DNA of 25,137 nt from a virus, in the IMG/VR virus record IMGVR_UViG_3300008107_000496, positions 1-25,137 of that record; one strand, given 5' to 3'. This document shows positions 5,687 through 23,433 of this stretch, piece after piece. The notes under the pieces were generated by a model. The model worked only from the letters and a program-made list of their open reading frames with translations, was not told where the DNA came from and made no database searches. Made by a program: the position numbers and the translations under genes. How positions within the stretch are numbered: the stretch's first letter is position 1; the number at the start of each line of letters is the position of its first letter.

Positions 5687-5887
5687 ATGACAGTTCCAGA
5701 CGGCCAGCAATTTAGAGGCGTAAACATTATAAAACTTCCAGGTCAATATGCTGGGTGGAAAGTAGATGCTCCAGGTATGAACCTTACGTCTAGCAATATC
5801 AAGGGTATTAAGAAGCATATTAATACAAGCCTTGAGGCAGGGTTCCAAGTGATTGACGGTCGCCTCCACAAGCCACAGTCTGAGTGA
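5687..5887 (+). CDS. Small hypothetical protein
   Basis: The product has 66 residues, with a strand-rich N-terminus (FRGVNIIKLPGQYAGWKVD) and a helix with a IKKHINTSLEAGF core before a basic tail. No family is recognised. The regular alternation and the promoter exactly 6 nt before the ATG support expression as a single-gene unit between the ParB-like gene and the membrane protein gene. Confidence 0.7.
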   Translation: MTVPDGQQFRGVNIIKLPGQYAGWKVDAPGMNLTSSNIKGIKKHINTSLEAGFQVIDGRLHKPQSE

Positions 5888-5893
5888 CTGGTG

Positions 5894-5905
5894 TAAAATA
5901 ATACA
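5894..5905 (+). promoter_or_regulatory. Leaderless-type promoter (TAAAAT, 6 nt before GTG 5906)
   Basis: TAAAAT at 5894-5899 is followed by aataca and GTG 5906. The position of the box supports GTG 5906 as the start. Confidence 0.6.
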
Positions 5906-6136
5906 GTGAAACAGATTCTCCTCCGTATTTGTGCAGCCTTTGCTGCTACTGGTCTATCGGTCGTTGGCGCTGGCGCTATTGCTGGTATTCCGCTGTGGAA
6001 AGCCATTATGATGGCTGGTATTGGTGGTGTGTCCTTCGTTGTTGAGGGACTTGCACGAGCCTATATGGATGATGGTAAATTAACAGTTGATGAGATTAAT
6101 GATGTCTTCAACAAAGTTGACAAGAAAGCAAAGTAA
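5906..6136 (+). CDS. Small membrane protein with EF-hand-like tail, possible holin
   Basis: The product has 76 residues with a GTG start. Two hydrophobic stretches (about residues 4-27 and 30-49) separated by a Gly/Pro turn indicate a helical hairpin in the membrane. The tail contains MDDGKLTVDEINDVF (54-68), which resembles a half EF-hand or dockerin-type calcium loop followed by a helix, then a Lys-rich end. Size and topology suit a class II holin, but the lysin is 14 kb away, and the Ca-binding-like tail is also found in other small phage membrane proteins. Function is therefore open. The stop overlaps the next start as TAATG. Confidence 0.75.
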   Translation: MKQILLRICAAFAATGLSVVGAGAIAGIPLWKAIMMAGIGGVSFVVEGLARAYMDDGKLTVDEINDVFNKVDKKAK

Positions 6137-11587: not shown

Positions 11588-15590
<4,003 letters not shown>

Positions 15591-15591
<1 letters not shown>

Positions 15592-21268: not shown

Positions 21269-21523
21269 ATGAAAAAGTTAATTGGTTACGGCTCATTGAG
21301 CCTTTTTGTTGCATCATTCCTACTATCACCCGTAGCATTCAGTCTCTGGGGTTCTGATGAACCTTGGCGTGTAGGCAAAGGTCTCCACATCAACTTGTGG
21401 AAGCGCACCTTCCAAATTGGTGTTTGTCACAAACAACATTACAAAAACTCCATTGATGGTGAACTGTCCGTTGTAGGTGGTAGGTTTATGGAAACCGCAC
21501 CTGAAGAAATTGGAGCATGGTGA
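21269..21523 (+). CDS. Small protein with N-terminal TM/signal segment
   Basis: The product has 84 residues. MKKLIGYGSLSLFVASFLLSP is a basic start with a hydrophobic core (about 4-26), either a signal peptide or a single membrane anchor. The rest is soluble and beta-rich, containing WGSDEPWRVGKGLHIN and one Cys (C54). Located next to the lysin, it could act in lysis, but I recognise no family. The stop overlaps the next start as TGATG (21521-21525). Confidence 0.65.
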   Translation: MKKLIGYGSLSLFVASFLLSPVAFSLWGSDEPWRVGKGLHINLWKRTFQIGVCHKQHYKNSIDGELSVVGGRFMETAPEEIGAW

Positions 21524-21744
21524 TGCTTTGGAAGCGTGACAAACCAAGTAAAGAACTTCCACCCCGTGTTAAGAAACTTGATACTCCGTCATTGTTGTCT
21601 TGGATGGACTCTACACTTATGAATGTTGGTAGAACATTTGACGCTTGGCGTTACAAGGACGCACCAATAGAAGAGGTGCACCAAGCAATTGATGTGCTAA
21701 ATGACCTTTGGGAAGAAATTTCTAATAGAACTATTGACAAATAG
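21523..21744 (+). CDS. Small hypothetical protein
   Basis: The product has 73 residues from ATG 21523, chosen because it overlaps the upstream stop as TGATG. In-frame ATG 21517 and GTG 21520 would add two or one residues. It has a basic N-terminus (LWKRDKPSKELPPRVKK) and then two helices (SLLSWMDSTLMNVGRTFDAW, PIEEVHQAIDVLNDLWEEI). It is the last gene before the hairpin region and terminase unit. No family is recognised. Confidence 0.7.
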   Translation: MLWKRDKPSKELPPRVKKLDTPSLLSWMDSTLMNVGRTFDAWRYKDAPIEEVHQAIDVLNDLWEEISNRTIDK

Positions 21745-21810
21745 TAACCACTAGGTGCTATTGTGTAAAGAACGAAGATTTCGGTGTTCTCCTTTCCGCC
21801 GAGTCTTCCA

Positions 21811-21849
21811 GGGGGTCCCTACTTTCCTCCCTCCTGTGTAGGGACCCCC
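21811..21849 (+). terminator. Perfect 12-bp hairpin between the lysis-side genes and terminase
   Basis: GGGGGTCCCTAC (21811-21822) pairs perfectly with GTAGGGACCCCC (21838-21849) around a 15-nt pyrimidine-rich loop. There is no U-tract after it, as is common for terminators in Actinobacteria. Outer elements ACGAAG (21772-21777) and CTTCGT (21860-21865) can close the whole region into a larger structure. It ends 18 nt before the terminase -10 box. It is most likely a terminator for upstream transcripts; a packaging (cos/pac) or processing signal is an alternative. Confidence 0.6.
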
Positions 21850-21866
21850 GACTTCGCCCCTTCGTG

Positions 21867-21879
21867 TATGCTTTAATGC
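21867..21879 (+). promoter_or_regulatory. Leaderless-type promoter (TATGCT, 7 nt before GTG 21880)
   Basis: TGTATGCT carries the -10-like TATGCT at 21867-21872, seven bases before GTG 21880. It lies directly after the hairpin, so terminase would start a new transcript. Confidence 0.55.
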
Positions 21880-23433
21880 GTGACAGCACTTGATGAATCA
21901 GACATTGACGAATACGAGCAAGCGGAAGACCTTGATGAAACTTCCGCTGAGTTTCTTGACAACCTAGTTAAGAGGTTAATTATCTTCACAGAAGAATTCT
22001 GTGATGTGGAGTTATTCCCTTATCAGGTTCCTATTGCATATCGCTTGATTGAATCCATCGTAATTGGTGATGGTGAAGAAATTACAGTCGTAGCAACTCG
22101 TCAGTCTGGTAAGTCTGAGGTGCTCTCCAATGTTTGTGCTTCGCTCATGGTTATCCTTCCCAAGTTGGCAAAGGTCTACCCAACATGGCTTGGAAAGTTT
22201 GAGAAGGGTTTTTGGGTCGGTGTGTTTGCACCAACAGAAGACCAAGCCGATACCGTGTTCAGTCGTATTGTTACCAAGTTGACCAGCGACCACGCACTTG
22301 AATTCCTTCTTGACCCAGAAATTGATGATAAGGCAGCCTCTGGTGGCTCCCGTGGTAAAGGCAAACTCATCAGCCTAAAGAACGCTGGGTCACTCTGTCG
22401 TATGCAGACTTGTAACCCTAAGGCCAAGATTGAATCTAAGACCTACCACTTCGTCCTTATTGACGAGGCTCAGGAAGCCGATGAGACCATGATTGCTAAA
22501 TCAATCAAGCCTATGTTGGCGTTCAACAACGGTTCTATCTGTCTTACAGGAACTGCCACTCGCTACAAGTCTTACTTCTACAAGATGATTCAGTACAACA
22601 AGCGTAGGTCTGTAGGCGGTAAAACAAAAAGACAGCAGCACTTTGAATACGACTGGAAAGTTGCCGCCAAGTACAACAAGAACTACATGAACTTCATCTC
22701 TAAGGAGAAGTTGCGTATTGGTGAAGACTCTGACGAATTCCAGATGTCCTATTGCAACCGTTGGATTCTTGAAAAGGGTATGTTCGTCACCGAGGAGCGC
22801 CTGGACCGCATGTATGACGCTTCCATGAACCTTGTGAAGCAGTGGTGGCGCACACCAGTTGTGGCAGGTATTGACGTTGCCCGCTCTAATGACTCCACCG
22901 TAGTTACTGTCGTGTGGGTTGACTGGGACCATCCAGACCCATTTGGTTTCTATGAGCACCGTATTCTCAACTGGCTTGAGATTAACAACGAAGAGTGGGA
23001 GTCTCAGTACTTCCAGATTATTGACTTCCTACGTAACTACGACTGTCTTCGTATTGGGGTGGACGCTCAGGGTGTAGGTGGTGCTGTGGCGGAACGTCTG
23101 CAAATCCTTCTTCCTGACGTTGAGGTTATGGCTATTACCTCAGATGCTAAGAATCAGAATGAACGGTGGGTACACCTAACAGAACTTATTCAGCGTGACC
23201 AGTTGGTTGTTCCAGGACACTCTAAGGCTCGCCGTGTGCGCACATGGAAACGTTTCAACCAGCAGATGTCAGACCTTGAAAAAGTGTATAGAGGTCCATA
23301 TATGTTGGCGGCTGCTCCCGATGAAAAGGGTGCATTTGATGACTACCCCGACAGTTTGGCTATCGCCTGTCATATGACGGTGCAGGACACCATGCCGACC
23401 ATCTTGGTGGCAGATAATCCTTTTTTCCGTTGA
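21880..23433 (+). CDS. terL: Terminase large subunit
   Basis: The product has 517 residues with a GTG start. It is the ATPase-nuclease motor that packages phage DNA into the prohead. Visible motifs: an adenine-binding-like FPYQ (46-49), Walker A as VATRQSGKSE (71-80), Walker B VLIDEAQ (192-198; D195, E196) and coupling motif CLTGTA (221-226). The RNase H-like nuclease domain follows with GIDVARSNDS (330-339; D332), RIGVDAQGVGG (391-401; D395) and FDDYPDSLAIAC (486-497; D488 and D491 region). All key residues are present, and the length is normal for the family. A small terminase subunit is not identifiable just upstream. It begins after a strong hairpin and its own -10 box. Confidence 0.96.
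   Translation: MTALDESDIDEYEQAEDLDETSAEFLDNLVKRLIIFTEEFCDVELFPYQVPIAYRLIESIVIGDGEEITVVATRQSGKSEVLSNVCASLMVILPKLAKVYPTWLGKFEKGFWVGVFAPTEDQADTVFSRIVTKLTSDHALEFLLDPEIDDKAASGGSRGKGKLISLKNAGSLCRMQTCNPKAKIESKTYHFVLIDEAQEADETMIAKSIKPMLAFNNGSICLTGTATRYKSYFYKMIQYNKRRSVGGKTKRQQHFEYDWKVAAKYNKNYMNFISKEKLRIGEDSDEFQMSYCNRWILEKGMFVTEERLDRMYDASMNLVKQWWRTPVVAGIDVARSNDSTVVTVVWVDWDHPDPFGFYEHRILNWLEINNEEWESQYFQIIDFLRNYDCLRIGVDAQGVGGAVAERLQILLPDVEVMAITSDAKNQNERWVHLTELIQRDQLVVPGHSKARRVRTWKRFNQQMSDLEKVYRGPYMLAAAPDEKGAFDDYPDSLAIACHMTVQDTMPTILVADNPFFR

Follow-up and report, generated by a model that had tools for sequence, protein, structure and literature searches.

A two-hairpin element with pyrimidine-rich, anti-Shine-Dalgarno-like loops upstream of a phage terminase gene: a candidate structured RNA

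Comparison with related phages indicates that a real, conserved RNA element lies upstream of the gene for the terminase large subunit (terL) in the stretch of viral DNA analyzed here (the window, which is 25,137 nucleotides [nt] long and is part of a linear virus record of 26,429 bases in which no end repeats were found). The element spans positions 21774 to 21849 on the plus strand, between the stop codon (21744) of an open reading frame (ORF) of 75 amino acids (aa) and terL. We regard it as a candidate phage structured RNA of about 80 to 95 nt, the two hairpins of which, HP1 and HP2, would display open, C/U-rich loops resembling the anti-Shine-Dalgarno (anti-SD) sequence. By sequence comparison, its marks are two stems that stay paired as their sequence changes, pyrimidine-rich loops, and an HP1 loop belonging to a motif that also occurs on hairpins of unrelated phages and that, in the scans made, is tied to an intact CCUCC core. 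Our preferred reading, which we consider roughly an even proposition, is that the element is a phage small RNA or a 3′-end hairpin, with predicted anti-SD pairing either in trans or from the 3′ ends of mRNAs.

All the features of the locus described here are on the plus strand. The upstream ORF (21517 to 21744), for which no PHROG match was found, ends before the two-hairpin element. Within its last codons is TTGACA (21734 to 21739), a possible −35 sequence for the element, although the match could instead stem from coding conservation; a spacer of 19 separates it from TATTGT (21759 to 21764), a possible −10 sequence of the form TANNNT located 9 nt upstream of the HP1 base. HP1 (21774 to 21808), which is supported by folds, covariation, and covariance model (CM) hits, has 5 plus 6 bp with a small internal loop, its arms being GAAGA-TT-TCGGTG and CGCCGA-G-TCTTC. 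Its apical loop, UUCUCCUUUC (21787 to 21796), is anti-SD-like. HP2 (21811 to 21849), supported by folds and by a hand alignment, has a perfect 12-bp stem and an apical loop, UUUCCUCCCUCCUGU (21823 to 21837), that is 93% C/U and includes CCUCC. Farther downstream, a −10-like hexamer, TATGCT (21867 to 21872), lies 7 nt upstream of the terL start and is a candidate leaderless promoter. terL (21880 to 23433) encodes 517 aa from a GTG start and matches PHROG phrog_2 (E = 8.1e-27); its nearest annotated phages are six Streptomyces phage records at 46 to 47% identity.

The region of the element folded at −42.6 kcal/mol, versus −27.5 ± 3.2 kcal/mol for 200 dinucleotide shuffles (z = −4.7), none of which was as good. 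Positions 21771 to 21866 folded alone gave a z of −5.3, and across six elements z ranged from −5.3 to −9.1. An earlier note on this DNA had described a strongly structured region directly before terL with a perfect 12-bp stem (21811 to 21822 with 21838 to 21849). Both the structure and its location were borne out: the stem is HP2, seen in the sequence as well as in the fold, and the GTG at 21880 is 30 nt downstream of it. The same note had taken a second pairing, GAAGA with TCTTC (21774 to 21778 with 21804 to 21808), as the outer part of a single structure; the pairing is present, but as the base of a separate hairpin, HP1. The closing stem that had been proposed for the whole region, ACGAAG (21772 to 21777) with CTTCGT (21860 to 21865), is missing from the best and centroid plus-strand structures, though the two sequences are complementary. 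Because GAAGA is occupied by HP1, this closing stem is not formed on the plus strand; the minus-strand fold does contain a long-range closing stem. By eye, the ACGAAG/CTTCGT pairing is present in the near-identical loci L002 to L010 and missing in L011, L014 to L018, L021, and L052. What the earlier note had missed was the independence of HP2, the conservation of the pyrimidine loops, and their anti-SD sequence.

From 332 viral relatives, the terL search retained 80, and upstream sequences were taken from these 80 terL loci. We scored a hairpin if it had a stem of at least 6 bp and a C/U-rich loop within 220 nt upstream of terL, and this rule was applied to the 75 loci that had at least 150 nt of upstream sequence (5 loci were too short). 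Hairpins satisfying the rule were found at 22 of the 75 loci. At 19 of these 22 (L001 to L011, L014 to L018, L021, L022, and L052) both hairpins were present, and at L073, L074, and L076 the pyrimidine-loop hairpins upstream of terL are different ones. The identical rule found nothing on the reverse strand of the 75 loci, and 53 of the 75 had no rule-matching hairpin upstream of terL. In relatives that are free of the element (e.g., L023 and L025), the upstream stop is followed within a few tens of bases by a TANNNT and the start of terL. By this comparison, the two-hairpin element is an optional insert upstream of terL. L181, which came from a second terL scan, has two pyrimidine-loop hairpins as well (positions 1542 to 1615, before terL); their loops, UUUCCUACCCCCCUACCCCCUG and UUCCUCCUA, have a C content nearer that of 6C RNA (discussed below). 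Inspection by eye of L074 (about 5820 to 5960), L073, and L076 revealed arrays of hairpins with pyrimidine-rich loops upstream of terL, the last member being a long G+C-rich hairpin that, with its T-rich tail, resembles a true terminator. Also by eye, no comparable hairpin pair was found upstream of terL in the Streptomyces phages LuckySocke and BRock (two of the six hits).

When MAFFT was applied to the whole element, it misaligned the hairpins, and RNAalifold on that alignment gave eight pairs, all in HP2. Because of this misalignment, the loop was used as the anchor for aligning HP1, and hand alignment was applied to both hairpins. In the hand alignment, for which arms were picked to pair and bulges were set aside, 9 HP1 and 13 HP2 variants were paired throughout the selected arms (two 3′ bases of L012 were unpaired), and the loops were 81 to 100% C/U. 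In seven terL relatives, 42 of 42 HP1 cells were paired, 8 of them altered on both sides. The HP1 covariation score for these seven sequences was 0.667 versus 0.202 when shuffled, a value matched by none of 500 shuffles. Both sides had changed in 3 of 6 HP1 pairs, versus 1.4 in shuffles; 41 of the 500 shuffles reached this number, which is not decisive alone. The covariation counts leave out L021, L181, L073, L074, and L076; L021 was excluded from alignment A5 because of its differing loop length. A covariation analysis in relatives was the check that had been proposed for this region, and its result is that HP1 stems change with compensation. Judged from these alignments, the stems are rewritten with compensation among relatives and the loops remain C/U-rich.

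The loop of HP1 led to a wider set of phages. Scanning for exact copies of TGTTTCCTCCTTTCCA gave 34 stretches, several of which are unrelated phages with this sequence as a hairpin loop. At least four further pairs were present in 10 of 23 distinct contexts (shuffled mean, 1.1) and, with terL kin removed, in 6 of 19 (shuffled mean, 0.8). The pattern scan GNG[TTTCCTCCTTTC]CNC yielded 58 stretches. Counted together with the earlier loci and six genome contigs, 22 of 49 distinct contexts of GNG[UUUCCUCCUUUC]CNC had a stem of at least 7 bp, whereas 3,000 shuffles gave a mean of 1.3 and a maximum of 7; terL kin account for 3 of the 22. No stem of at least 5 bp was found in the 11 contexts of a permuted loop of equal composition, or in the 11 rows (8 distinct contexts) of a loop in which CCUCC was changed to CCUUC. 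A control with a C-G closing pair and a slightly looser pattern had stems of at least 7 bp in 1 of 31 contexts, and for a shorter loop, GTG[TTCCCTTTC]CAC, enrichment in hairpins was not clear (stems of at least 6 bp in 4 of 24, with 1.7 expected). In blastn comparisons at E = 1e-10, the hairpin loci were mutually unrelated except for the terL kin, L084 with L096, and L106 with L229. With sites resembling ribosome-binding sites (RBSs) removed, about 16 phage lineages remain in which G[UUUCCUCCUUUC]C caps long, unrelated stems. The motif hairpin, with its loop open, was part of the best fold at 21 of 24 loci given about 170 nt of context, the exceptions being L212, L220, and L235. An 18-mer scan of genome contigs gave six hits, none with a stem of at least 6 bp. 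Among the matches listed from the open PMC literature (titles and abstract openings), we found no description of this hairpin-loop motif, and an earlier printed one is possible. The related phages L106 (1456 to 1479) and L229 (7339 to 7362), which are 72% identical over 1.9 kb, have kept the loop hairpin with differing stem sequences; in L106 an RNA ligase gene precedes the hairpin and a helicase gene lies downstream. The loop motif of the hairpin loci (UUUCCUCCUUU) has perfect mirror symmetry.

Two CMs, R1 and R2, were used to search for the motif. R1 includes terL kin, but the window was left out of it and of alignment A8 because MAFFT had misplaced the window row in alignment A7. Alignment A8 also omits L223, L232, L235, and L093 as RBS-like and L096, L216, L220, and L237 for brevity; the same screen called L209 RBS-like, and this hairpin was kept in A8 but not in A9. 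Because R1 still includes terL kin (L002, L011, L014, L016, L018, and L052), R2 was built from alignment A9, which holds 17 hairpins exclusively from phages outside the terL kin. Pairing counts from A6, A8, and A9 are not independent evidence because their rows were chosen for forming the hairpin; pairing on the selected hairpins was 98.3% in one count and 132 of 132 cells in another, which is true by selection. The independent evidence for pairing in the motif is therefore the stem count of the pattern scan (22 of 49 versus 1.3). R1 matched HP1 of the window at 25.4 bits (E = 1.5e-5) and HP2 at 11.6 bits (E = 0.34). Over 42 records, it found beyond the known elements a second adjacent hairpin in the record of L239 (22.2 bits; loop, UUUUAUCCUUUC), the remaining matches having E values of 0.017 or worse. 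At E = 1e-4, R1 matched 1 of 148 Bacteroidota genomes (G057, reached through its 18-mer) and none of 149 Bacillota genomes; as 53 candidates were scored per listed genome, this is a weak negative. With R2, searched at E = 10, the window gave a single hit, HP1 (21781 to 21802; 22.0 bits; E = 1.7e-4), and HP2 was not matched. Among 21 terL loci, R2 recovered HP1 of L014, L016, L018, and L052 at 36 to 39 bits and, weakly, L002 and L003 (16.1 bits; E = 0.11), and it missed HP1 of L011 and L021 and the hairpins of L074, L076, and L181. The stricter R2 search thus recovers the window but only part of its kin. By these models and scans, HP1 of the window belongs to the phage hairpin-loop motif.

The 12-nt motif loop shares nine bases, CCUCCUUUC, with the anti-SD tail of 16S rRNA, GAUCACCUCCUUUCU, and the HP1 loop of the window retains CUCCUUUC of these. 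A passage in PMC6288834 gives GAUCACCUCCUUUCU as the tail for several bacteria and GAUCACCUCCUUA for Beta- and Gammaproteobacteria; we used the sequence from that passage because the 16S-tail pattern was missing from the three draft genomes that were scanned. Loop matches of 6 to 7 nt near the gene starts of the window were few. Searched with Rfam at the gathering score, the window contained no family, and neither did the hairpins of 16 loci, the only match being a tRNA elsewhere in L229. The best of 4,227 Rfam families at the element was 6C RNA (RF01066), which aligned over its full length (1 to 75 of 75) at 26.2 bits (E = 0.087 in 201 bases); as the gathering cutoff is 47, we rejected membership in this family. 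In a 6C search of 44 records of terL kin, 5 scored 24.1 to 25.7 bits, and the record of the window was not included at E = 1. Among 14 control genomes, only C. glutamicum and Caulobacter had matches, both below the cutoff. No match was above the cutoff in 25 records of hairpin phages and terL kin, where two weak ones fell at hairpins (16.2 and 13.4 bits).

Several bacterial RNAs nonetheless resemble the element in part. Like 6C/B11 RNA, it consists of two adjacent hairpins, with loops that are C-rich in 6C and C/U-rich in the window. Unlike 6C, the window loops UUCUCCUUUC and UUUCCUCCCUCCUGU are without a run of about six C's (the longest run of C is three), the element is phage-borne, and the loop motif is a C/U mixture like the 16S tail. 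6C is an RNA of the Actinobacteria, and the terL of the window is, from sequence alone, closest to that of the Streptomyces phages mentioned above. The loops of B11 base-pair with RBSs, according to the portion of PMC10470900 consulted. Further 6C copies are described in part of PMC9569102 on mycobacterial chromosomes and plasmids, and so RNAs of the 6C type can travel. NfeR1 (alpha-r14) has several hairpins that each carry an identical anti-SD motif on strongly divergent stems (from an excerpt of PMC10746234), and CcsR, of the cuckoo family, sits with a DUF1127 gene (from an excerpt of PMC10253847). These alphaproteobacterial RNAs resemble the element in that stems vary and loops are fixed, although in the terL group the loops are C/U-rich rather than identical. 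Their motif, CCUCCUCCC, is in neither window loop, the phage motif being UUUCCUCCUUUC and its variants, and they are bacterial genes, as the phage element is not. In Xanthomonas, sX13 has stable stems with apical C-rich loops and represses mRNAs that have G-rich motifs near the start (a passage in PMC3771888). Small RNAs of the sX13/RNAIII type, likened here by description, share such stems and loops with the element but are bacterial and have three hairpins and 4C or 5C motifs. In Rhodococcus phage WC1, intergenic noncoding regions rank with the most highly transcribed loci (a passage in PMC10986025), and such highly expressed actinophage RNAs are likened to the element by description. By analogy, the mode of action of the element may resemble that of 6C, alpha-r14, or sX13; the element itself is assigned to none of these families.

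We looked at the sequences upstream of the element and of gene starts for clues to expression. Within the range searched (5 to 10 nt upstream of HP1), TANNNT was found at 7 to 9 nt in 9 of 12 elements and 5 of 8 sequence types, against a background of 6.9% per position; it was not found in L014, L016, or L018, where HP1 directly follows a stop codon. With TANNNT at 7 to 9 nt, transcription would therefore begin near the HP1 base. terL looks leaderless: at 70 of 75 terL loci an in-frame RTG follows TANNNT at 5 to 8 nt, a count given without a background rate. The phage of the window is rich in starts of the leaderless type: among the first starts in the window, TANNNT precedes RTG by 5 to 8 nt at 9 of 28 (background, 5.6%) and an SD sequence is present at 3 of 28 (background, 9.6%); with a looser SD rule the window value was 0.21 versus a background of 0.11. 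In terL kin with versus without the element, the values were 0.30 versus 0.38 for SD and 0.21 versus 0.20 for leaderless starts. The other hairpin phages are not rich in leaderless starts (0.08; background, 0.04).

In the mechanism that we propose, a promoter belonging to the element would drive its transcription in the clade of the window, and elsewhere the element would form the 3′ end of the upstream transcript. Its loops would then pair with purine-rich RBSs; we infer such SD pairing for the phage RNA because the C-rich loops of B11/6C and sX13 pair in this way in the cases studied (passages in PMC10470900 and PMC3771888). Pairing would damp the translation of leadered mRNAs, and many of the phage's own genes, including terL, would be less exposed to this effect, being leaderless in appearance. 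HP2 may also terminate the upstream transcript ahead of the terL promoter. A more ambitious version would have the hairpins form a class of small RNAs in about 16 unrelated phage lineages that mimic the 16S anti-SD tail in a hairpin loop and seize the RBSs of leadered mRNAs (mainly those of the host); in the phage of the window, with its often leaderless genes, this would steer the cell to phage mRNAs such as terL. This version we consider doubtful. We see no specific support for a sparing of phage mRNAs because, in terL kin, SD and leaderless use is alike with or without the element and leaderless starts are scarce in the other hairpin phages.

The position of the motif hairpins relative to genes bears on two other explanations. 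If the motif were merely the reverse complement of a strong RBS (GAAAGGAGGAAA), it should precede genes on the other strand, and among contexts with stems shorter than 7 bp, 24 of 41 do precede the start codon of an open frame on that strand. However, only 4 of 24 with stems of at least 7 bp do so, the window has no minus-strand ORF of at least 50 aa between 21563 and 22011, and the stems covary; this artefact is hardly credible as an account of the element. Motif sites at L232 (1926 to 1943), L226 (3913 to 3930), and L230 (7833 to 7850), which on the other strand are 8 to 11 nt upstream of the start codon of an open frame, are likely RBSs, that of L232 lying within a 10-bp hairpin. The main rival to anti-SD pairing is a transcription terminator, or an mRNA 3′-end barrier, by which the leaderless promoter of terL would be insulated; the loop would then serve termination, RNA stability, or a binding protein rather than pairing in trans. 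The element has a stop codon on one side and the terL promoter on the other, as such a role would have it, and in 13 of 20 sister hairpins that are not RBS-like the loop is at most 57 nt past the stop of a same-strand ORF; among the remaining sisters, L201, L212, and L227 are within predicted ORFs and L244 is amid opposite-strand genes. U-rich tails are present in L224 and L011, and Sinorhizobium phage phiM5, to which L219 is 69% identical across 69% of the query, carries, at the place equivalent by gene order to the L219 hairpin, a hairpin of the ordinary terminator-like kind that ends in a T-rich tail. Yet in the window no U-tract follows the G+C-rich stem of HP2 (GACTTCGC), and the element was not in the output of a terminator scan, although the 8-nt loop limit of that scan would miss it anyway. 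Termination also does not need an exact 12-nt loop with an intact CCUCC core over unrelated stems, nor the two hairpins of the terL group, each with a pyrimidine loop. A 3′-end or terminator role is possible, and we give this rival a substantial minority share of our belief.

A DNA recognition or cleavage site for packaging (cos or pac) would also be expected near terL, as packaging sites often flank terminase genes, and the element is 30 nt upstream of it. When gene neighbors were scanned at six loci outside the terL kin, terL was downstream of the motif hairpin in two, L086 and L097, but the scanned neighbors in L084, L089, L093, and L106 were tail, nuclease, helicase, or RNA ligase genes (L086 and L093 have stems shorter than 7 bp and are RBS-like). 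An essential packaging site is disfavored because the element is optional (22 of 75 terL loci), and compensatory stem changes together with a one-strand loop indicate RNA. Among three roles proposed earlier for the region, a conserved structured RNA gained support from covariation in the terL relatives, and the packaging site, poorly supported in view of the 53 of 75 loci without a hairpin under the rule used, is in our estimate very improbable. Alternatively, the C/U loops might be read as single-stranded pyrimidines by an RNA-binding protein or Rho, with no SD pairing. The loops are almost pure pyrimidine and vary in detail within the terL group, and the loose HP2 loops are compatible with this reading. 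Against it, neither a loop with a one-base change in the CCUCC core that leaves it pure pyrimidine (0 of 11 rows) nor a permuted loop of equal composition (0 of 11) was found on a stem of at least 5 bp, and we consider a protein or Rho site improbable.

For the anti-SD reading, the wider interest is that several bacterial small RNAs carry anti-SD or C-rich loops on stable stems and many unrelated phages carry a like solution, with the CCUCC core unchanged on hairpins in the single substitution tested. Action in trans would make the hairpins a general means by which phages seize translation, and one that a simple sequence signature could reveal. If they are terminators, a 12-nt loop common to phages of seemingly different hosts still wants explaining.

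Three other observations were made in the window. A scan of 83 sequences for C/U-loop hairpins found no second element there except a small hairpin at position 152, which has 7 bp and the loop UUUCUCCCCA. At 21290 to 21302, inside the start of the ORF at 21269 to 21523, GGCTCATTGAGCC is followed by TTTTT and is terminator-like. Positions 12304 to 15591 encode a protein of 1,095 aa that matches collagen-like and tail-fiber PHROGs.
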